24,556 nt of DNA from a virus. How positions within the stretch are numbered: the stretch's first letter is position 1; each line of letters begins with the position of its first letter. The stretch is taken from the IMG/VR virus record IMGVR_UViG_3300007538_000173, positions 1 through 24,556 of that record. One strand, written 5' to 3'. The translations under genes were made by a program, and so were the position numbers. Shown here piece after piece: positions 2,778 to 17,601 of the stretch. The notes beneath the pieces are model-generated. The model was not told the origin of the DNA, did no database searches, and saw nothing but the letters and a program-made list of their open reading frames with translations.

Positions 2778-3326
2778 CTATTTAGTTAGCTTTTGTTTAA
2801 ATATATCCATTACTTCTTTTAATTCTGGATTTGATTCTCTCACATAAGTCATAGTCTGTCTACCCTTTTGTTTGAATCCATAATATGGAAGTAATCTACG
2901 TATAGTTGGTTTATGTACGAAAGAACATATAGGTCGGTTGTGCTTCCTATCAATTACCCTAACATCTGCCAGTAAATCTCCTACTTTAACAACATCCTTC
3001 TCCTTTAGTAATTGATACAAATCTTCCATACAATTAAGACTTCTTGTGCGTAAACTAATATCGGCTGACTTACTATTATTCTTATTATATAAGTTATCTA
3101 ATCCAATACCATCAATAACTTCCTGTTCCCACGCAAAAGCCTGTTCTTCTGATAAACCCATGAATACCCTTTCCACTGACAACTCACTTCCAGTAAAGAG
3201 TGCCTTATTTAATTCAGCACAAGTGCTTTTACCACTTATACAATGTTTGTATCTATTACCCTTACCCTTGCCAACATATCTCACTACATCATCTACATAG
3301 CAAACATACACATAATAGTTATTCAT
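2778..3326 (-). CDS. GIY-YIG family endonuclease, free-standing (homing-type)
   Basis: The 182-residue product starts with a recognisable GIY-YIG nuclease module: YYVYVCYVDDVVRYVGKGKG, where VYV and RYVGKGKGNR represent the two tyrosine/glycine motifs, followed by basic residues and a downstream glutamate (AFAWEQEVIDGIG, about residues 65-77) that would be the metal-binding Glu. The C-terminal 90 residues are basic (FKQKGRQTMTY near residue 155) and probably bind DNA. Free-standing GIY-YIG genes such as the T4 Seg genes cut related phage DNA to spread themselves. It is the first gene of the leftward operon, 51 bases from the leftward -10 box, with SD GAGGG. The nuclease fold is fairly certain; the target is unknown. 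Confidence 0.85.
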   Translation of the reverse strand: MNNYYVYVCYVDDVVRYVGKGKGNRYKHCISGKSTCAELNKALFTGSELSVERVFMGLSEEQAFAWEQEVIDGIGLDNLYNKNNSKSADISLRTRSLNCMEDLYQLLKEKDVVKVGDLLADVRVIDRKHNRPICSFVHKPTIRRLLPYYGFKQKGRQTMTYVRESNPELKEVMDIFKQKLTK

Positions 3327-4037: not shown

Positions 4038-4408
4038 TTATCAACACTAACAACCTAACACACTCACTACAATCAATTCTAAGCAACTCTATTGCTGCTT
4101 GTAATGAATCATACTCTAAGTATAATAAAGCTCAACACGGAGGCACTAGGGACGCTTTAAAGGTATCCTTCAATACTGGCTATAGTAACATTGTATTATT
4201 GATGGATATTATTGTGAAAGAGAACTTACCTACACTACAACGTTTAGAGTTGGACAAACTTAATGTGCTACACAATAGTATAAATAACTTAAATAAAAGA
4301 GTTGACAGTAATGTTACAATCAATCATTATACTAAGACAGACAATAACACCATAGATAATCTAGCGTGGTGTAATGTAAATACTGGTGAAATAGAGGAGA
4401 TGGTTTAA
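4034..4408 (+). CDS. hypothetical helical protein (124 aa)
   Basis: Mostly helical, asparagine-rich protein beginning MIINTNNLTHSLQSILSNSI. A central heptad-like stretch (PTLQRLELDKLNVLHNSINN) suggests a coiled coil. The ATG overlaps the upstream stop, so translation is likely coupled; the upstream CACAACA gives no SD, consistent with that. No family recognised. Confidence 0.72.
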   Translation: MIINTNNLTHSLQSILSNSIAACNESYSKYNKAQHGGTRDALKVSFNTGYSNIVLLMDIIVKENLPTLQRLELDKLNVLHNSINNLNKRVDSNVTINHYTKTDNNTIDNLAWCNVNTGEIEEMV

Positions 4409-6754: not shown

Positions 6755-8773
6755 GTGAGTGAGTATGATAGTGGTTTATTTATAGGAGAACATCATGCCT
6801 GTTTATCTACTGAGTTTCCTATTACTAAATATGGGAAGCCACGTAGATCATGTAACTCTAGTGATGGTTTAGCAGTATATGAACATACAATGACAACAGG
6901 AGAGTTATATTACGATGCTGTATGTTTCTCTTGTAAACAGGGTTTTACCAAGGAAGAAGTACATTCATCAAGTCTGACAGGTAATTTAGGTATTGATCCT
7001 TCGGTAGGTAAAGTTACCAAAGTTATGGAATTTGTCAATAAAGCCTCTAAGAAGTTACCTATTACCAGAGAAGAACGTGATATTCTATGGAATAAGACGG
7101 GTTGGGAGGCTAAAGGTTTTCGTGGGTTTACCGATGAGATATTAAAATTCTATGGGCATAGGACTGAGTTAAATGCTAATGGAGAGGTGATTGCTCAGTA
7201 CTACCCTGAGACAGAAGATTACAAACTTACGGGATACAAATCATGTCATGAACCTAAACGGTTCGGTATAGGTAATGTAGGAAAAACAGGACTTAGTAGC
7301 CAATTAAGTGGTCAACATAAATTCCCAGAAGGTGGTAAATATGCCTTGATAGTAGGCGGGGAAAAAGATAAAATTGCAGCACAAATTATGCTCCGTGAAT
7401 ATCAGGTAAAGAAACGACAAGATGGGTACAACCATTATAGTGTAGTTAGCCCTACAACAGGAGAACCTTCTGCTGCAAAACAATGTAGACAACAATACGA
7501 CTGGTTAAACTCGCATGAAGTTATTGTGATTGGCATGGATGCAGACGAAGTGGGGTTTGAGGCAGCCTTAGAGATAGCATCAGTATTACCAAAAGAAAAG
7601 GTGCGTATTGCTACATGGAGTGGTAAAGACCCTAATAAAATGTTATTAGATGGAAGACAGGCACAATTTTTATCTGATTTCTTTGGAGCTAAACCTTTAA
7701 TTGAGACAGGTGTGTATGATGCTAATATAGACTTCATGCAAGGTGTAATTGAAGTATTAACTACCCCAAGAATACCACTACCCCCTCATATGTATAAGTT
7801 ACAAGAAATGACAAAAGGCGCAGGTTTATTTACTAGATCCATATATTCACTCATAGGTGACACGAGCGTTGGTAAATCAACTCACATTGAGAGTATGATT
7901 GATTATTGGATGTTTAATGTACCTGACCATAAGGTAGGTATTGTAAGTTTAGAGGCTAACAAGGAAGAGTGGACAGCATCTATGTTATCTACATTTCTAA
8001 CTAACAACTTGTGGTGGATTCCTGTAGATGAAGTTAAGGATTACTTACAGCGTCCAGACATAGTTGAAAAGTGTAAATCTTTCTTCTATAATGAATATGG
8101 GGAACCACGATTCGCTATCTTAGATGATAGGGAAAATACGGTACATTCTTTAGAAAAGAATATAGAACGCTTAGTTAAACAGTTTGGTTGTACTATTATT
8201 GTTAATGATGTACTTACAGATGTATTAAGAACAGCGTCTAACGAAGACCAAGCTGCACATTTTAATTGGCAGAGTAACTTAGTTAAAGGGGGCACAACAA
8301 TCTTTAATGTACTGCATACCCGTAAATCCCCTTCAGATAGGAAAGGTAAGCCAACTTTTCCAGATGAAATGGACACATATGGTAGTTCGATATTCGTCCA
8401 AAAGGCTGCAGGTAACTTTATTATTGCACGTAATAAGAATGCACCAGAAGATGATATGATTGAACAAAATACAACGTATATGAAAGTAACTAAACTTCGT
8501 AAGGGTGTTACAGGTATGGCTGGTGCATTATATTATGATGGAGAGAGTAAAGTTATTGCTGATAGAGACCAATTTTTTGCTGCCAACCCAGATAAACTAC
8601 CTGTAGGATATGACCTAAGCGTTAGTAGTTTTGATAAGGCTTATTGGGAAGAAGGTGGTAGAGGTTATAACGGGGAAGGGTCTGAAGGTAGTTTTAGTGG
8701 TAATAAACAAAATAAAACTTTCACTATCAATACAGACAATGCACCAATAGATGTAGGAGGGTTCACACTTTGA
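6755..8773 (+). CDS. T7 gp4-type DNA primase-helicase
   Basis: The product unwinds the fork and primes lagging-strand synthesis. From a GTG at 6755 it is 672 residues. An N-terminal zinc domain shows C16, then C33-NSSDG and C57-x2-C60, with the first knuckle widened to C-x16-C instead of C-x2-C. The TOPRIM domain follows, with IVGGEKDK (about 200) and GMDADEVGFEA (about 260). The RecA-like helicase has Walker A GDTSVGKST (about 370), a Walker B-like TIIVNDVL, NVLHTRKSP, and an arginine-bearing C-terminus. The TOPRIM glutamate (EGE in T7) is glycine here (GGE). Start: an ATG exists at 6740, but the SD GAGGAG lies after it, 6-7 bases before GTG 6755. The stop overlaps the polymerase start. Confidence 0.93.
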   Translation: MSEYDSGLFIGEHHACLSTEFPITKYGKPRRSCNSSDGLAVYEHTMTTGELYYDAVCFSCKQGFTKEEVHSSSLTGNLGIDPSVGKVTKVMEFVNKASKKLPITREERDILWNKTGWEAKGFRGFTDEILKFYGHRTELNANGEVIAQYYPETEDYKLTGYKSCHEPKRFGIGNVGKTGLSSQLSGQHKFPEGGKYALIVGGEKDKIAAQIMLREYQVKKRQDGYNHYSVVSPTTGEPSAAKQCRQQYDWLNSHEVIVIGMDADEVGFEAALEIASVLPKEKVRIATWSGKDPNKMLLDGRQAQFLSDFFGAKPLIETGVYDANIDFMQGVIEVLTTPRIPLPPHMYKLQEMTKGAGLFTRSIYSLIGDTSVGKSTHIESMIDYWMFNVPDHKVGIVSLEANKEEWTASMLSTFLTNNLWWIPVDEVKDYLQRPDIVEKCKSFFYNEYGEPRFAILDDRENTVHSLEKNIERLVKQFGCTIIVNDVLTDVLRTASNEDQAAHFNWQSNLVKGGTTIFNVLHTRKSPSDRKGKPTFPDEMDTYGSSIFVQKAAGNFIIARNKNAPEDDMIEQNTTYMKVTKLRKGVTGMAGALYYDGESKVIADRDQFFAANPDKLPVGYDLSVSSFDKAYWEEGGRGYNGEGSEGSFSGNKQNKTFTINTDNAPIDVGGFTL

Positions 8774-10709
8774 TTTTAGATTTAGATAAATATTTACCAC
8801 AACGACATTATGGAGATATTGAAGCTAAAGGTTTCTATGATGTTGTTAATACAGAAGATGACGTTTGGTGTCTATGTACTATCACAGAAGATGATCAGGT
8901 ACTATTATTTCATGATTACCCTGAATATGATAATGTAGAGGTATATGATGCTGATGATAATAAAACTTATATCATACCACCGCGTGTAGGATCTCTTATA
9001 GATGGTGCTAGGTATTGGTATAAAATTGGCAGAAGTGGTGGCAAACTCTCAGTTCACAATTGTCAGACATACGATAAACCTTTAATTGAGAAGATTTGGC
9101 CTAAGTGTATTATACCTGCATCTTGTTGGGAGGATACTTATATACAATCAAAGGTGCAATGGTTCGACAGACCTTGTCCAAAAGGTGCCAAATCCGCTCA
9201 TGGCTTAAAAGCCTATGGCATTAAGTTTGGTAATAAGAAGCCAGACATAGAAGATTGGACAATCATGGATGCGTATAAACTACACCGTATCGTAGAAGAC
9301 TGTAAAATACAAAAGATGACTGCCTTATTTTTAGATAAGGAAGCAGAAACCTTTAAAACTAAGTTTGGTATGGATTTTACAAAAGCTATTAATGAAGTAG
9401 AGAAACCTTATGCAACTATTGCGTTTGAACAAGAGTTACGTGGTGCTAAGGTTGATGTAGAACATATTAATAAATGTGTAGCTTGGTTAGATATTGAAAC
9501 TGAACGTTTATCTTCTTACATAGAACCATCTTTACCACCTACCTTGAAAAATAAGACAGGACGTGTTGGTAGGAATGAGATGGCTCTTTTATTACTAGGG
9601 AGGGATGACGTAGCTGATATTATTGACACTTATACAGGTGAGGTAGTTAAACCTTACTACAAACCTAGTACTAATTTCCACCGTATTGAAAAGCAAAAGT
9701 ATTACTCAGGGTTTCATATATCATATGGAGATAGCCCTTCTTTCAAAAAGAAGAATGAACTTACAACGTGGATAAAAGATACGCATCCTGACACTAAAAG
9801 TAAAGAATGGGATATAGGTTTTGAGGAAAAAGAGACTCCCCTCTTAAACAAGAACACTTGTGAATATTTTGGTGTAGAGGAAACAGAAACTGATATTATC
9901 TCTGGTCCACATACACGTATTGAATGGAATATAACTAAACTTACCCAACATGAGAAGGTAAAAGGTTACCTGATAAAATCTGGTATTAAGTGGGCTGAAG
10001 TATGGAACATTAAAAAGGTAGACGGTTACCCAGCTAGAGCAGAGGAAGATACTATTATCTACTACCCACCAAAAGCCCATCCTTCTATGCAGATAACGTA
10101 TGAAGTTAAAAAGGGTGAGAACTTAGTATCATCCCCTAAATTTGGGGATAAAGAATATGAGCAACTTGGTGATGATGCAGAGATGGGTAAGGATATTGCA
10201 AAATACAACACCTATATGCATAGACGTAGGTTTTTCTCTAATGTTAAAGACCCAGAAAACAAGGGTGTATTAGCTTATGTTAGAGAAGATGGTAGGGTTC
10301 CCTGTGGTTTAGGAAACTTCCTTACATCTACAGGCCGTAGTAACCAACGGGTTATTGTTAATTTACCCTCTGAATCAAGTCTTTATGGTAAGGAGATGCG
10401 AGAAGCTATCATTGCAGATGAAGGTAAAATTCTAGTTGGTTGTGACCAAAAAAGCTCCCAACTTAGTATTGGAGCGTTTATAGCTAACAACCAAGATTAC
10501 TACAATGCTGTAGCCACAGGGGTTGAGTTTGAAAATACAGAAGATGGTTCGCAAGTTTACCTTGGGACTTCAGCCCACTGTGTTAATGCCCGTAACTTTG
10601 GTTTAGTTTCTCAAGAAGAATGGACTAAAGCTGTATCTTCTCAAGATGAGGGGTTAATACACAGTATAGCCTTAAGACGTAAGAAGTCAAAAGGTCCAAG
10701 TTTTGGCGT
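8770..10709 (+). CDS. family A DNA polymerase, exon 1 (3'-5' exonuclease, palm, start of fingers)
   Basis: Exon 1 encodes residues 1-646 and two bases of codon 647 of a predicted 824-residue replicative polymerase. The start is TTG at 8770, overlapping the primase TGA, with SD AGGAGGG at good spacing. The exonuclease domain shows D16-I-E18 (Exo I), SVHNCQTYDKP (Exo II) and a later RIVEDCKIQKM segment (probable Exo III). Motif A is VGCDQKSSQLSIGAF with D559; the position of the usual DYSQIE glutamate (steric gate) is Q564. Motif B begins R637-x3-K641-x3-F645-G. Reading through the splice site, the unspliced frame stops at 10716, so without splicing the protein lacks half the fingers and catalytic motif C. 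It is larger than T7 gp5 (704), with extra sequence between the exonuclease and palm. Confidence 0.92.
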
Positions 10710-10988
10710 TAACTAATATAGCGCATCCAACCTTAAACGGGGAAAACCTTACCATTAAGTTGAAGGTAACCTGCCGTGCTAAAGTGCCTAATTGTCACTA
10801 AAGCCTAACGACTAGATGTGTATGTAGAGAAGCATCGTAGAGCCAAGTGGTGGTATTTATACCTTAAATCGAAACGGGTTGGCTATTGCTTGCTAAAGTA
10901 ATAGATGATATAGTCTCAACTTCTATGGAAACATAGAGATGCAAGTGATGTTGCTGGCTCAGTATAACGAACTGGGTTGAAGATAATG
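10710..10988 (+). ncRNA. group I self-splicing intron (td-like, IA2 type), no internal ORF
   Basis: P1: exon GCGU (10706-10709) pairs with IGS GCGC (10721-10724), giving the U-G splice pair at U10709. P10: AATATA (10715-10720) pairs perfectly with exon 2 TATATT (10989-10994). P3: CCAACC (10727-10732) with GGTTGG (10877-10882). P4: ACGG (10737-10740) with CCGT (10774-10777). P5: ACCTT (10746-10750) with AAGGT (10763-10767). P6: GCT/AGC (10778, 10802) and AGTG/CACT. P7: GACTA (10810-10814) with TAGTC (10911-10915), in the classic contexts CCTAACGACTAGA and GATATAGTC. P8: a 9-bp stem 10883-10904. P9: TCTATG-GAAA-CATAGA (10922-10937). Two more 3' stems lie at 10941-10954 and 10958-10976. The last base is omega-G 10988. 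Extra P7.1/7.2-like stems and TAAACGGGGAA mirror T4 td. Splicing restores motif B. Confidence 0.94.
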
Positions 10989-11523
10989 TATATTTGGTTG
11001 TAGTGGTAAAAAACTAGGTTTAATGTTAGATATACCCCCACAAGAAGGTAACGAGAAAAAGAATAACTTCTTAACTCGTATGGGTCTTGATAAAGTAATT
11101 GAATATGTTAAAAGGTGTTCTCAGCAATTCAGTTACGGAGGGGGGTTCTTTATCCCTGTCTATGGTTACTGGCTATGGTGTCGTGGTGTAAACGTAGGGG
11201 TTAACTATTTTTGTCAAGGATTAGAAGCTATTATCCAGAAAAAGGCAGTTATAGCTTTTGATAAGATAATGGAAGCCAAGGGTTATAAAACTCACACAGG
11301 TTCTGTACTTCAGGTCCATGATGAGATCCTTATAGAGACTTTACCTGAGTTAGCTGATGAAGTTGGTAGGATAATGTGTAATTGCTACACAGAAGCTGGT
11401 TCTGATATGTTAGCTTGGTATAAGGAGAATAAATGGGCGTACCCTGCAGGTGGTGAACCTAGTATAAGTGTAGATTTTAGTGGAGGTTATGCTAAAGGTC
11501 TCAACTATTATGCGTGTCATTAG
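10989..11523 (+). CDS. family A DNA polymerase, exon 2 (fingers and motif C)
   Basis: Exon 2 supplies the last base of codon Val647 and residues 648-824. The joined sequence reads SFGVIFGCSGKKLG, aligning with SFG/NFGLIYGMSAFG-type O-helices of Pol I and T7. Here the usual Tyr766 (Pol I numbering) is Phe649. Motif C is LQVHDEILIE with H757, D758 and E759. A separate ATG at 11023 could give a 166-residue fragment, but it has no SD, lacks most of the O-helix and would be inactive alone. The exon ends at TAG 11521-11523, 15 bases before a hairpin. The polymerase reading is certain; splicing is inferred from structure. Confidence 0.9.
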
Positions 11524-11538
11524 TAATTAAACAAGATT

Positions 11539-11556
11539 ACCTCCCAAATGGGAGGT
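11539..11556 (+). terminator. hairpin after the polymerase gene
   Basis: ACCTCCC (11539-11545), loop AAAT, and GGGAGGT (11550-11556) form a perfect 7-bp GC-rich stem followed by GTCTTTATT. The T-run is imperfect, so termination may be partial. The right arm also contains GGAGGT, a full SD that would be masked in the hairpin. Confidence 0.65.
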
Positions 11557-11574
11557 GTCTTTATTGGGGGTTTT

Positions 11575-12714
11575 ATGAGTTTTAACTTTAAAGTTGGAGA
11601 CAAAGTTGCAAGTGTCTGTGGTAGTATGAATGGTGCGCTGATATCAATAGACCACAGACATAATCGATGTAAGGTTTTATTTGATAACGGAAGGGAGAGG
11701 AACTACAGTAAAGCTGCAATAGAATCTGGAGATATAGATGATAAACCTTATCAAAAAATAAAAGCAGGGGATAAATTTAATACTAATAAATACGGGGTGG
11801 TTACAGTTAAAGATTACCTAAGTACTTATAAGATTACTATAGAATTTAAAGATGGTGTTACTAGCTCCACAACAGCATCTAGTCTCAGATTAGGTAATGT
11901 TGGTCACCCTATGAGCGGCTTGTACATTGGCTTTGAGTTTACTAACAGTGATGGTTGTACTGGTAAAGTTATTAGATTTAATTCACCCTACGATGTAGAT
12001 GTAGAGTGGTTTGATGGTGTGGTAACTAAAGGGCATGCCGCAGCCCATATAAAGTTTGGAGGTGTTTACTACCCAAATTATAAATCTGTTTGTGGTGTCG
12101 GGTACTTTGGGATTGGAGATTATATTTCCGATAAGAGTGGTAAGACAGGTAATTATAATAAAAGAGTATATGGCTCATGGTGTAGGATGTTAGGTCGGTG
12201 CTACGATCCGAAAGAACAAATGAAACCTAAAGGTAGAGCTTATATTGGCGTTACTGTTTGCGAGGAATGGCACTGTTTTCAAAACTTTGGTAAGTGGGCA
12301 AGTGATAAGGAAGACAAATTTATTGTAGGTTTTGAGTTAGATAAGGATATGTTTGGTGATGGATTATCATATTCACCTGATAATTGCACATTACTCCCCG
12401 CCAGTATTAACAGTTTTCTCTCAGAATGTGGCGCTACTAAAGTATCAGGACTACCAGATGGTGTAAATATAGTTAAGCCTAAGGGGGGTACAAACGCTAC
12501 CGTGGGTTATATTGCTAGGTGTCACGTTGATAATGTAAGGCAATACCTAGGGTTCTATAAGACTCCAGAAGAAGCTGCAGAAGTATATAAGGTTGCCAAG
12601 GAAAGCGAAGCTCTTAGGTTAGCTGACAAGTTTAAGTCGGTTCTCAGTACAGAAGAATATGATAAACTTGTTAATTTTACTTTATCAGATATACATAGAA
12701 AGAAGGATAAGTAA
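11575..12714 (+). CDS. free-standing HNH/AP2-type homing endonuclease-like protein
   Basis: The 379-residue product has four parts. Residues 6-48, 63-108 and 115-162 are three diverged copies of a roughly 45-residue beta module (VGDKV...VLFDNG, AGDKF...IEFKDG, IGFEF...VEWFDG), probably SH3-like. Residues 170-285 form the nuclease core typical of phage HNH proteins (YGSWCRMLGRCYDP, VTVCEEWHCFQNFGKW, ELDKD, YSPDNCTLLPASIN); the histidine positions are diverged. Residues about 296-342 resemble an AP2 DNA-binding domain (YLGFYKTPEEAAEVY). Such genes are mobile and often linked to introns. The ATG at 11575 follows GGGGG; an earlier in-frame ATG (11548) sits in the upstream hairpin loop. An AUU at 11563 with the hairpin-borne GGAGGT is an unlikely alternative. 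It sits just after the intron-bearing polymerase gene. Confidence 0.8.
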   Translation: MSFNFKVGDKVASVCGSMNGALISIDHRHNRCKVLFDNGRERNYSKAAIESGDIDDKPYQKIKAGDKFNTNKYGVVTVKDYLSTYKITIEFKDGVTSSTTASSLRLGNVGHPMSGLYIGFEFTNSDGCTGKVIRFNSPYDVDVEWFDGVVTKGHAAAHIKFGGVYYPNYKSVCGVGYFGIGDYISDKSGKTGNYNKRVYGSWCRMLGRCYDPKEQMKPKGRAYIGVTVCEEWHCFQNFGKWASDKEDKFIVGFELDKDMFGDGLSYSPDNCTLLPASINSFLSECGATKVSGLPDGVNIVKPKGGTNATVGYIARCHVDNVRQYLGFYKTPEEAAEVYKVAKESEALRLADKFKSVLSTEEYDKLVNFTLSDIHRKKDK

Positions 12715-12718
12715 CCCC

Positions 12719-12747
12719 TTGACACCTACTCTCCCATACCCTATAAT
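12719..12747 (+). promoter_or_regulatory. perfect-consensus sigma70 promoter
   Basis: TTGACA (12719-12724), a 17-base spacer and TATAAT (12742-12747): 12 of 12 matches with optimal spacing. The start should be near 12753-12755, at the end of the left arm of the hairpin that follows. It begins four bases after the stop of the HNH gene and would drive the cluster of small genes that follows. Confidence 0.92.
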
Positions 12748-12773
12748 CTCCGTATCTTAATTGCTACGGAGAT
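12746..12773 (+). promoter_or_regulatory. SD-masking / terminator-like hairpin nested with the promoter
   Basis: ATCTCCGT (12746-12753) and ACGGAGAT (12766-12773) are exact reverse complements with a 12-base loop, followed by TTTTATT and the ATG at 12781. The right arm contains the SD (GGAG, 12768-12771). The left arm overlaps the -10 box and ends where transcription from that promoter would begin. Read-through RNA would carry the whole hairpin (terminating or hiding the SD), whereas RNA from the local promoter would lack the left arm. Confidence 0.75.
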
Positions 12774-12780
12774 TTTTATT

Positions 12781-13068
12781 ATGAAACTATCACCTTCTGA
12801 ACTCATATTAACTCTTGTAATATTATCAGTACTATTCTACACTGGAGTTACACGTTACCAATCTTCACTTGTACCTCCGCCTACATTGCCAAGTTGTACT
12901 GTGACTGATAACTTAGTCACTCTATACAATAAAAATTACACCAATGCTAAATTAAAGTTGACATGTGGTGGTGAAGTGTTTAATATTGACGGATTGAATG
13001 TAGGAAGAATTGTGTATAAACAAAACCGTAGAGTTTTAGGTTTGAAACATGCACCAGATGCTAAATAA
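12781..13068 (+). CDS. membrane-anchored hypothetical protein (95 aa)
   Basis: One N-terminal transmembrane segment (about residues 7-24, ELILTLVILSVLFYTGV) is preceded by few charges, then a proline-rich linker (SLVPPPTLPSC) and a small beta-rich domain with two cysteines (SCTVTD, KLTCGGEV) that could form a disulfide. An inner-membrane anchor with a periplasmic domain is likely, and a role in host takeover or superinfection exclusion is possible but unsupported. SD GGAG is nine bases upstream, within the hairpin arm. No family recognised. Confidence 0.75.
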   Translation: MKLSPSELILTLVILSVLFYTGVTRYQSSLVPPPTLPSCTVTDNLVTLYNKNYTNAKLKLTCGGEVFNIDGLNVGRIVYKQNRRVLGLKHAPDAK

Positions 13069-13082
13069 CTGGAGATAATAAT

Positions 13083-13682
13083 ATGAAAATTAAAGATATC
13101 ATTGCTAACTTGGATAAGTCTGAAGCTAATAGGGATGAGAATGTTAATTGGGATTTACAGAATATGATCTCTGATTTAAGTTTAGACTGTTGGGTGTATA
13201 GCCAAAATCAAGATGACTTACGTATGAAGTGTTACTGGTTGTCCGTTTGGACTTGTACAGATACCCATGTTGGGACAAGAGCTTACTTCTTGGATGATAT
13301 GTTGGTTTGTATCTCACAACAAAACTCACGTAAAGGTGGTGAAACCTTCGAGTGGGTTGATGAGATGGCTGTTACCGCCACAAGAAACTTCATATTTTCC
13401 TTACAGAAAGAAGAAGATGAATCTGATGTGACCTATCTAGATTTAGAAGAGGAAGTTGGTGTAGGTTTTAACGTTAATTTTACTGGACAATTACACACAG
13501 ATAAAGTAATCTACGAAGGAAGTAGGGCTGTTGTCTTAGAAGATAATGAATACACAGAGCTACCTTGTGGTAAGAAAGAAAATAACTTTCACACCATTAA
13601 GGTCACTAATGAATATGGCACTCGCCTTGTTGACATACAAAAATGTGTTGTCCCTTGGCATACTACAGATGGTTGGAGATAA
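13083..13682 (+). CDS. hypothetical protein (199 aa)
   Basis: Begins MKIKDIIANLDKSEANRDEN, with a tryptophan-rich region around residues 37-60 (DCWVYS, KCYWLSVWTCTDTH). An acidic segment (EEDESDVTYLDLEEE) separates it from a C-terminal half containing repeated short strands. The SD is GGAGAT, about 7 bases upstream, and the stop is followed one base later by the next ATG. No domain recognised. Confidence 0.72.
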   Translation: MKIKDIIANLDKSEANRDENVNWDLQNMISDLSLDCWVYSQNQDDLRMKCYWLSVWTCTDTHVGTRAYFLDDMLVCISQQNSRKGGETFEWVDEMAVTATRNFIFSLQKEEDESDVTYLDLEEEVGVGFNVNFTGQLHTDKVIYEGSRAVVLEDNEYTELPCGKKENNFHTIKVTNEYGTRLVDIQKCVVPWHTTDGWR

Positions 13683-14097: not shown

Positions 14098-14467
14098 AGT
14101 ACTCTTACTTGGTTCTGGTAGTGAACCATCTATGTCCCACAGTAGAATTATTGACACACTACAACATAGCCCTGAACTATTAATTATTTATATTAACCAA
14201 GATACTGTTGACACGATTAAAGGTTTAGATTATGATTGTGTCATCTTAGATGAACTCGTAGACTTAGGGTGTATTGAACAAGCCCGTGGTATTACCATTA
14301 AGAGTGATAATGTAAATGTTGGTACCATAGGTAATCCTGATTGGTATTATGATCCTGCACAATTAGTTCAGTTTGATGATTGTATGGGTATTGCAAATAA
14401 AAATTTATCTGGTAAGATAGTCGACACTAAACATAAGAAGCCATTTTATCAGACTGGTAGATGGTAA
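14087..14467 (+). CDS. hypothetical protein, possible alpha/beta nucleotide-binding-like fold (126 aa)
   Basis: Begins MKTKVLLLGSGSEPSMSHSR: a hydrophobic strand followed by a glycine/serine turn and helix, then a second strand (ELLIIYINQD) and a third (YDCVILDELV), as in Rossmann-like folds. Motifs for a named family are absent. The longer frame beginning at 14051 lies inside the upstream gene; ATG 14087 has GGAG at 5 bases and is preferred. Confidence 0.68.
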   Translation: MKTKVLLLGSGSEPSMSHSRIIDTLQHSPELLIIYINQDTVDTIKGLDYDCVILDELVDLGCIEQARGITIKSDNVNVGTIGNPDWYYDPAQLVQFDDCMGIANKNLSGKIVDTKHKKPFYQTGRW

Positions 14468-17449: not shown

Positions 17450-17569
17450 TTATATCTAAAGGAACACTGGCTAGATGTAGAATGGCTTTGTACTACGTGT
17501 CACGCTAAGAAGCCCATACAGTTAATAGCTAATAATATGGAAACAAAAGAACCCCTCTATATAATATGA
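17450..17569 (+). pseudogene. remnant of a zinc-binding or HNH-like protein (no start codon)
   Basis: A 39-codon open stretch begins right after a TAG and has no ATG, GTG or TTG upstream of its conserved part. It reads YLKEHWLDVEWLCTTCHAKK. The VEWLC-x2-CH pattern is the C-terminal zinc knuckle seen in many small phage HNH or zinc-ribbon proteins of the type HHxDYxKPLxVxWLCxxCH; the preceding HH is missing. An SD-like GAGGAG (17439-17444) precedes it without a usable start. It looks like a truncated gene between SSB and the terminator; chance resemblance is possible. Confidence 0.45.
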
Positions 17570-17601
17570 AAAACCCACAACATTCCTGTTGTGGGTTTTT
17601 T
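17569..17601. terminator. bidirectional rho-independent terminator
   Basis: AAAAACCCACAACA (17569-17582), loop TTCC and TGTTGTGGGTTTTT (17587-17600) form a perfect 14-bp hairpin with a T-run on the right and an A-run on the left, so it can stop transcription from both strands. It lies between the rightward SSB gene and the leftward tail fibre gene. The remaining bases to 17659 hold no gene that I can see. Confidence 0.93.

Follow-up and report, generated by a model that had tools for sequence, protein, structure and literature searches.

Promoter-early stem-loops (PeSLs) of T4-type phages were reportedly the subject of work by Arbiol et al. in 2010 and Comeau et al. in 2014. One source presents PeSLs as mobile cassettes of these phages that consist of a promoter and a stem-loop (PMC4503421), and two others also cite them (PMC3950731; PMC5348500). 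A second described system is the RBS hairpin of T4-type phages, which is known from I-TevI, I-TevII, I-TevIII, segB and mobE, as well as from soc and e; in T4, long transcripts hide the RBS, and an internal promoter yields a local RNA without one arm of the hairpin, in which the RBS is freed (PMC2988022). In the haloarchaeal virus HGTV-1, a TATA-box region and an inverted repeat precede most left-side ORFs, and this arrangement was likened to PeSLs (PMC3950731).

The element described here lies in a 24,556-nucleotide stretch of viral DNA (IMG/VR record IMGVR_UViG_3300007538_000173), the whole of which is referred to as the window. Like PeSLs, it is a short intergenic cassette in which a strong sigma-70-type promoter is joined to a stem-loop resembling a terminator, and its kind is present several times per genome and marks sites of small-gene exchange. 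The promoter matches the sigma-70 consensus at 12/12 positions with a 17-nt spacer, as in strong early promoters; the adjacent 10-bp stem and the TTTTTATT that follows it have an approximate terminator score that is positive but moderate; and the cassette is conserved where the flanking genes have been exchanged. Repetition is seen in related phages, which carry a second cassette family and a hairpin-less paralogue, and the window fragment (24.6 kb) has one cassette. The layout differs from that of PeSLs in that the stem begins inside the -10 box and the right arm provides the SD, whereas in the usual RB49 arrangement, seen in 7 of 11 cases, the terminator precedes the -10 by approximately 60 bases. 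Because membership in the T4-like phages was not found, the nearest records being Shewanella phages 1/4 and 1/40, which are listed only as Caudoviricetes and have an A-family polymerase, the element is called PeSL-like and full membership is not claimed.

The resemblance to the T4 RBS hairpins, with the SD paired in the long RNA and one arm removed by the promoter, holds by prediction. The T4 late promoters delay late genes, whereas the promoter in the window is of the consensus sigma-70 (early) type and not of the late, gp55 type; in addition, the window hairpin is also terminator-like. HGTV-1 shares the repeated promoter and inverted-repeat cassettes before small ORFs but uses an archaeal promoter. 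At the modB locus of RB49, too, the left arm occupies the start site, the right arm contains the SD, and a T tail and the ATG follow, but its sequence and phage are unrelated and its stem is shorter (6 bp, with a further stem of 3 bp inside). The window element fits a PeSL combined with a T4 start-site-dependent SD hairpin in a very compact layout. An initial annotation of this DNA had considered the overlap of promoter and arm unusually compact; the shared left arm does represent an extra-compact variant, but the kind has already been described as PeSLs.

Table 1. Positions of the promoter-hairpin element and of related features (window coordinates unless another sequence is named).
Feature	Position	Strand	Basis or remark
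Upstream HNH-endonuclease-like gene, 388 aa	11548..12714	+	PHROG 953, E = 9e-49
Conserved mobile cassette core (promoter and hairpin), 67 bases	12709..12775	+	DNA similarity, HMM matches
-35 box TTGACA	12719..12724	+	Read from sequence; invariant in 8 aligned cassettes
-10 box TATAAT	12742..12747	+	12/12 with 17-nt spacer; 3-base overlap with left arm
Left arm AATCTCCGTA (anti-SD)	12745..12754	+	Three pairs changed on both sides, 0 broken
Predicted transcription start, 7th base after -10 and last left-arm base	A12754	+	Promoter geometry, inferred
Loop TCTTAATTGC	12755..12764	+	Invariant in window and four homologous cassettes
Right arm TACGGAGATT	12765..12774	+	Fold, alignment pairing
Shine-Dalgarno GGAG, within right arm	12768..12771	+	Sequence; GAGG in L003, Shewanella phages 1/4 and 1/40 with matching left-arm change
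U-rich terminator-like tail TTTTTATT	12773..12780	+	Read from sequence; positive terminator score (approximate)
95-aa ORF with N-terminal hydrophobic stretch, served by cassette	12781..13068	+	ORF reading
Type-2 composite sites	G001 ~55215-55290; RB49 ~3140-3200		Hairpin encloses -10

The perfect TTGACA-N17-TATAAT promoter of the initial annotation was borne out (12/12, 12719-12747), and it is the sole one in a scan of the 24.6 kb window to combine a 12/12 match with a 17-nt spacer. The 8-bp repeat placed at 12746-12773 was essentially right in its location, but the stem is longer, with 10 perfect pairs (12745-12754 with 12765-12774) around the loop and, in the predicted fold, an extra inner C-G pair beyond a U/C mismatch. 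The tail, given as TTTTATT, was also essentially right; it is 7/8 T in the window and ends immediately before the start codon (ATG, 12781-12783), which lies nine bases from the SD. With +1 placed by the usual 6-base gap after the -10, an A occupies the predicted +1 register in 8/8 aligned cassettes, in each of which the register coincides with the last base of the left arm or with a position inside it; this provides in silico support for the proposed start at the left-arm end in the window's cassette family. The TATCTTAA portion of the loop is also common to the second cassette family. The two families, which differ otherwise, are predicted to begin their transcripts with the same bases, ATCTTAA (window, L002, L003, Shewanella phages 1/4 and 1/40, G001). 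The -35/-10 spacer (window 12725-12741) is C+T-rich in the main family (CCTACTCTCCCATACCC, CAATCCATCCACTCCCC), its exact sequence being variable. Elsewhere in the window, an 11/12 promoter (TTGACA-17-TATGAT, 14208-14236) is present without a hairpin of the cassette type.

The HNH-like gene upstream shows 63% identity with VPBG_00078 from Vibrio phage helene 12B3, probably starts at the ATG at 11575, and is the likely source of read-through RNA. Because its stop codon (12712-12714) lies approximately 30 bases before the stem, ribosomes finishing this gene should not open the stem. The 95-aa ORF downstream contains one N-terminal hydrophobic stretch, as judged by eye; a family search and a tblastn search against annotated phages gave no match for it, a search with the next gene (13083-13682) gave no relatives, and Rfam models at gathering cut-offs found nothing across the window. 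Farther upstream, the A-family DNA polymerase gene is split (8770-10716 and 11023-11523) by a probable group I intron at 10646-11010, with an RF00028 match at 10646-10938 (45.6 bits, E = 2e-10) slightly below the gathering score of 50; the polymerase is one uninterrupted annotated CDS in H101 and phage 1/40. The gap between the polymerase and HNH genes contains a terminator-like hairpin (11538-11557; ACCTCC-CAAATG-GGAGGT, then CTTTATT), of which the stem ACCTCC/GGAGGT is kept in phage 1/40 (L019 ~4151-4168) with a different loop. A strong 14-bp hairpin between convergent genes (AAAACCCACAACA...TGTTGTGGGTTTT, 17569-17600) is likely a two-way terminator, and a similar hairpin is found in G001 near 91793.

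The cassette is common to four related phage sequences, namely two metagenomic phage contigs (L002 and L003), which have both the cassette and the 95-aa gene, and Shewanella phages 1/4 and 1/40, which have the cassette without this gene (HMM matches, E = 7e-21 to 1e-18). The homologous cassettes of phages 1/4 and 1/40 lie at ~107920-107990 of KJ018209 and ~114220-114290 of KJ018211. Substantial DNA similarity between the window and the two Shewanella phages at this locus (67 bp at 80.6% and 63 bp at 81.0%) is limited to the cassette, and both flanks are non-homologous: downstream, the 95-aa ORF is replaced by the 113-aa S14_185, and upstream, the position of the 388-aa HNH-like ORF is taken by S14_186, which is unrelated, or by S140_188, which has a distant similarity. 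Because the similarity is confined to the cassette while the flanking genes differ, the cassette represents a conserved unit around which genes have been exchanged. A second cassette family of like layout is found in phages 1/4 and 1/40 and in G001 (CATAATCTCCTTATCTTAAACGGTAAGGAGATTTTTATTTATG), where it precedes three unrelated ORFs in the three phages. A third cassette of phage 1/40 is related (paralogous) and retains promoter and SD, but the hairpin is missing.

Arm covariation accompanies this conservation. The arms read CTCC/GGAG in the window and L002 and CCTC/GAGG in L003 and phages 1/4 and 1/40, a shift involving two adjacent double changes that retains both the pairing and the SD. The main family has two stem types only, so its covariation amounts to a single double swap; a third double change, contributed by the second cassette family, originates in that paralogous family only. 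All 10 stem pairs hold in the 8 sequences, with standard pairs in 80/80 pair cells, compared to 36-54% paired for slid pairings used as a control.

The layout also recurs in phages that are unrelated. Under strict criteria, 7 of the 8 genomes examined contain 1-3 elements each, versus 0-0.1 in shuffles. An unrelated 139-kb phage contig, G005, carries the layout at 28188 and 29117. In RB49, the -10 upstream of modB (AY343333, -10 at 9459, minus strand) is followed by GCCTCC...GGAGGC TTTTTTATTATG and the ATG; this pre-modB layout is without promoter annotation in the record. The initial annotation had proposed that the element limits translation of the membrane protein encoded downstream to the local promoter, but the layout is not confined to this gene, as it also occurs in the second family, the 139-kb contig and RB49 modB. 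Because the cassette stands before different genes in different phages, it is a general mobile insulating start cassette and not a switch that arose for this one protein. The layouts form a series: the terminator lies upstream of the promoter (type 1, most RB49 cases), a terminator-like hairpin has the -10 in its loop and leaves the downstream SD free (type 2, RB49 3179 and G001 55248), or the left arm is at the start site and the SD in the right arm (type 3, the class of the window).

In IMG/VR, 35 distinct places matched TATAATCTCC-gap-GGAGATT-ATG, versus 5 for the mispaired GAGGATT control (binomial p = 6e-5 against a baseline of 89:64 for GGAGATT over GAGGATT before ATG in the fetched loci); the test is conservative, because the fetched hits inflate this baseline toward GGAGATT. 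Many of the 35 places are without a -35 match and thus support pairing between the -10-adjacent sequence and the SD more than full promoters. Of two loci with the stem pattern that were inspected, L022 proved to be a true further case. Locus L023 (CCCCGTA...TACGGGG TTTTTTTT) has a -10-like TATAAT and no start codon and was dropped; it is a terminator after an apparent structural gene. A scan of bacterial genomes gave 10 places, mostly with a short stem extension or none, several of which represent one Clostridia repeat. Three contigs of Clostridia MAGs (L119, L122, L125) contain near-identical promoter-terminator-like repeats, TTGACA...TATAATCTCCCCATAG.AGGGGAGATTTTTT, with no adjacent ATG.

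The cassette is real and well conserved, and the mechanism that the initial annotation proposed for it is plausible; it is the best explanation, though not new in kind. The element is probably a PeSL-type cassette, compact and mobile, that serves to start early genes. Transcription by the sigma-70 RNA polymerase of the host would begin at A12754, so that the local message would be without the anti-SD arm; a message of this form would make no hairpin, escape termination and expose GGAG. RNA from the polymerase/HNH unit would keep the left arm, allowing the hairpin to form, and would either end within TTTTTATT, short of the start codon, or, where this point is passed, keep its SD locked in the stem. 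In this way, the cassette would reset transcription and insulate the next gene, and recombination would have placed it before different small genes. We think that both roles operate, with most of the upstream RNA probably terminated and the remainder sealed.

Folding predictions are in line with the exposure of the SD in local RNA. The predicted cost of opening the SD in the window is 14.0 kcal/mol in the long read-through RNA versus 4.5 kcal/mol in the short local RNA, approximately 10 kcal/mol lower without the left arm; across the two cassette families, the values are 12.4-14.3 versus 1.3-4.5 kcal/mol, and in both RNA forms the cost is 1-2 kcal/mol for cassettes whose SD is free. A function of the hairpin on read-through RNA likewise gained in silico support from the compensatory changes, which keep the stem and SD, and from the terminator-like tail. 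Approximate terminator scores, calculated with an approximate formula after d'Aubenton-Carafa et al. and useful as a relative guide only, are ~19 for the window, ~9 for the Shewanella phages, ~40 for RB49 modB and 53-59 for canonical RB49 stem-loops. Several observations weigh against the PeSL-like cassette: the predicted terminator is only moderate and is weaker still in the Shewanella phages, some SD pairing remains in the local message (4.5 kcal/mol), and the hairpin-less paralogue of phage 1/40, with its promoter and SD, implies that the hairpin is dispensable somewhere.

It is rather unlikely that the hairpin is a terminator only, stopping upstream transcription and sparing the local transcript, with the SD overlap a by-product of packing. 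The T-rich tail of the window agrees with such a role, as do the composites RB49 3179 and G001 55248, whose terminator is built around the -10 and whose SD is not part of the stem, and Vibrio phage 1.101.O, in which a terminator hairpin precedes a separate GAGG. However, both arm variants retain the SD, and G005_28188 and G005_29117 keep an SD-sealing stem despite a poor U-tract (approximate terminator scores of -41 and -3). Because members with a sealed SD and poor U-tract and members with a terminator and free SD both exist, the two roles are separable. The converse, in which read-through is unstopped and the hairpin silences the gene on long transcripts, like those of T4 I-TevI and mobE, is improbable: in most members, a U-rich tail directly follows the stem, and related PeSLs are described, in the title of a paper cited in PMC4503421, as promoter-terminator composites. 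The large gap in predicted SD opening cost and the established T4 precedents (PMC2988022) are the arguments for it.

Still less credence is given to a DNA operator, in which the inverted repeat from -10 to +21 would be bound by a repressor that acts as a dimer and is encoded by the phage or the host. In favor of it are the overlap between dyad and promoter and the loop TCTTAATTGC, which is unchanged across five sequences. Against it, the element is polar, with the SD and T tail on the right only; stems vary among cassettes of one phage, where one common operator would be expected to have constant half-sites; and SD arms that pair outnumber mispaired ones in unrelated phages as well.

The promoter-hairpin observation is far above chance. 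The full configuration (promoter of at least 11/12, a Watson-Crick stem of at least 8 from the -10, an SD in the right arm and a start codon) has a single occurrence in the window versus 0 in 10 shuffles, these being drawn by order-1 Markov sampling and not by exact dinucleotide shuffling, and the 131-nt region folds at -22.0 kcal/mol versus -14.4 +/- 2.8 in shuffles (z = -2.7). The idea that promoter, small hairpin and RBS overlap by accident, the genome being AT-rich, was rejected as refuted by conservation and has next to no probability, for although promoter-like and terminator-like sites taken singly are near the shuffle expectation in the region, their joint configuration is essentially missing in shuffles, and the cassette is conserved with compensatory change and common to non-homologous gene contexts.

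A broader proposal, advanced tentatively, is that the element may be a unidirectional insulator, present repeatedly across unrelated phages: a promoter fused into the left arm of a terminator and SD-lock hairpin, such that the fate of a message is set by its origin alone. This design may have arisen or spread repeatedly (Shewanella-type phages, the 139-kb metagenomic phage, Enterovibrio phages and RB49 modB), perhaps with a regulator that reads the shared start sequence ATCTTAA.

If the mechanism of the PeSL-like cassette is true, approximately 65 bases would launch a message, halt or silence the one arriving from upstream and provide the ribosome site. This would explain how a new small gene can be added to an early region without disturbing its neighbors, and would offer a portable, sequence-tolerant insulator part. 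Furthermore, it would extend the PeSL idea beyond T4-type phages and join it to the start-site-dependent RBS hairpin of T4.
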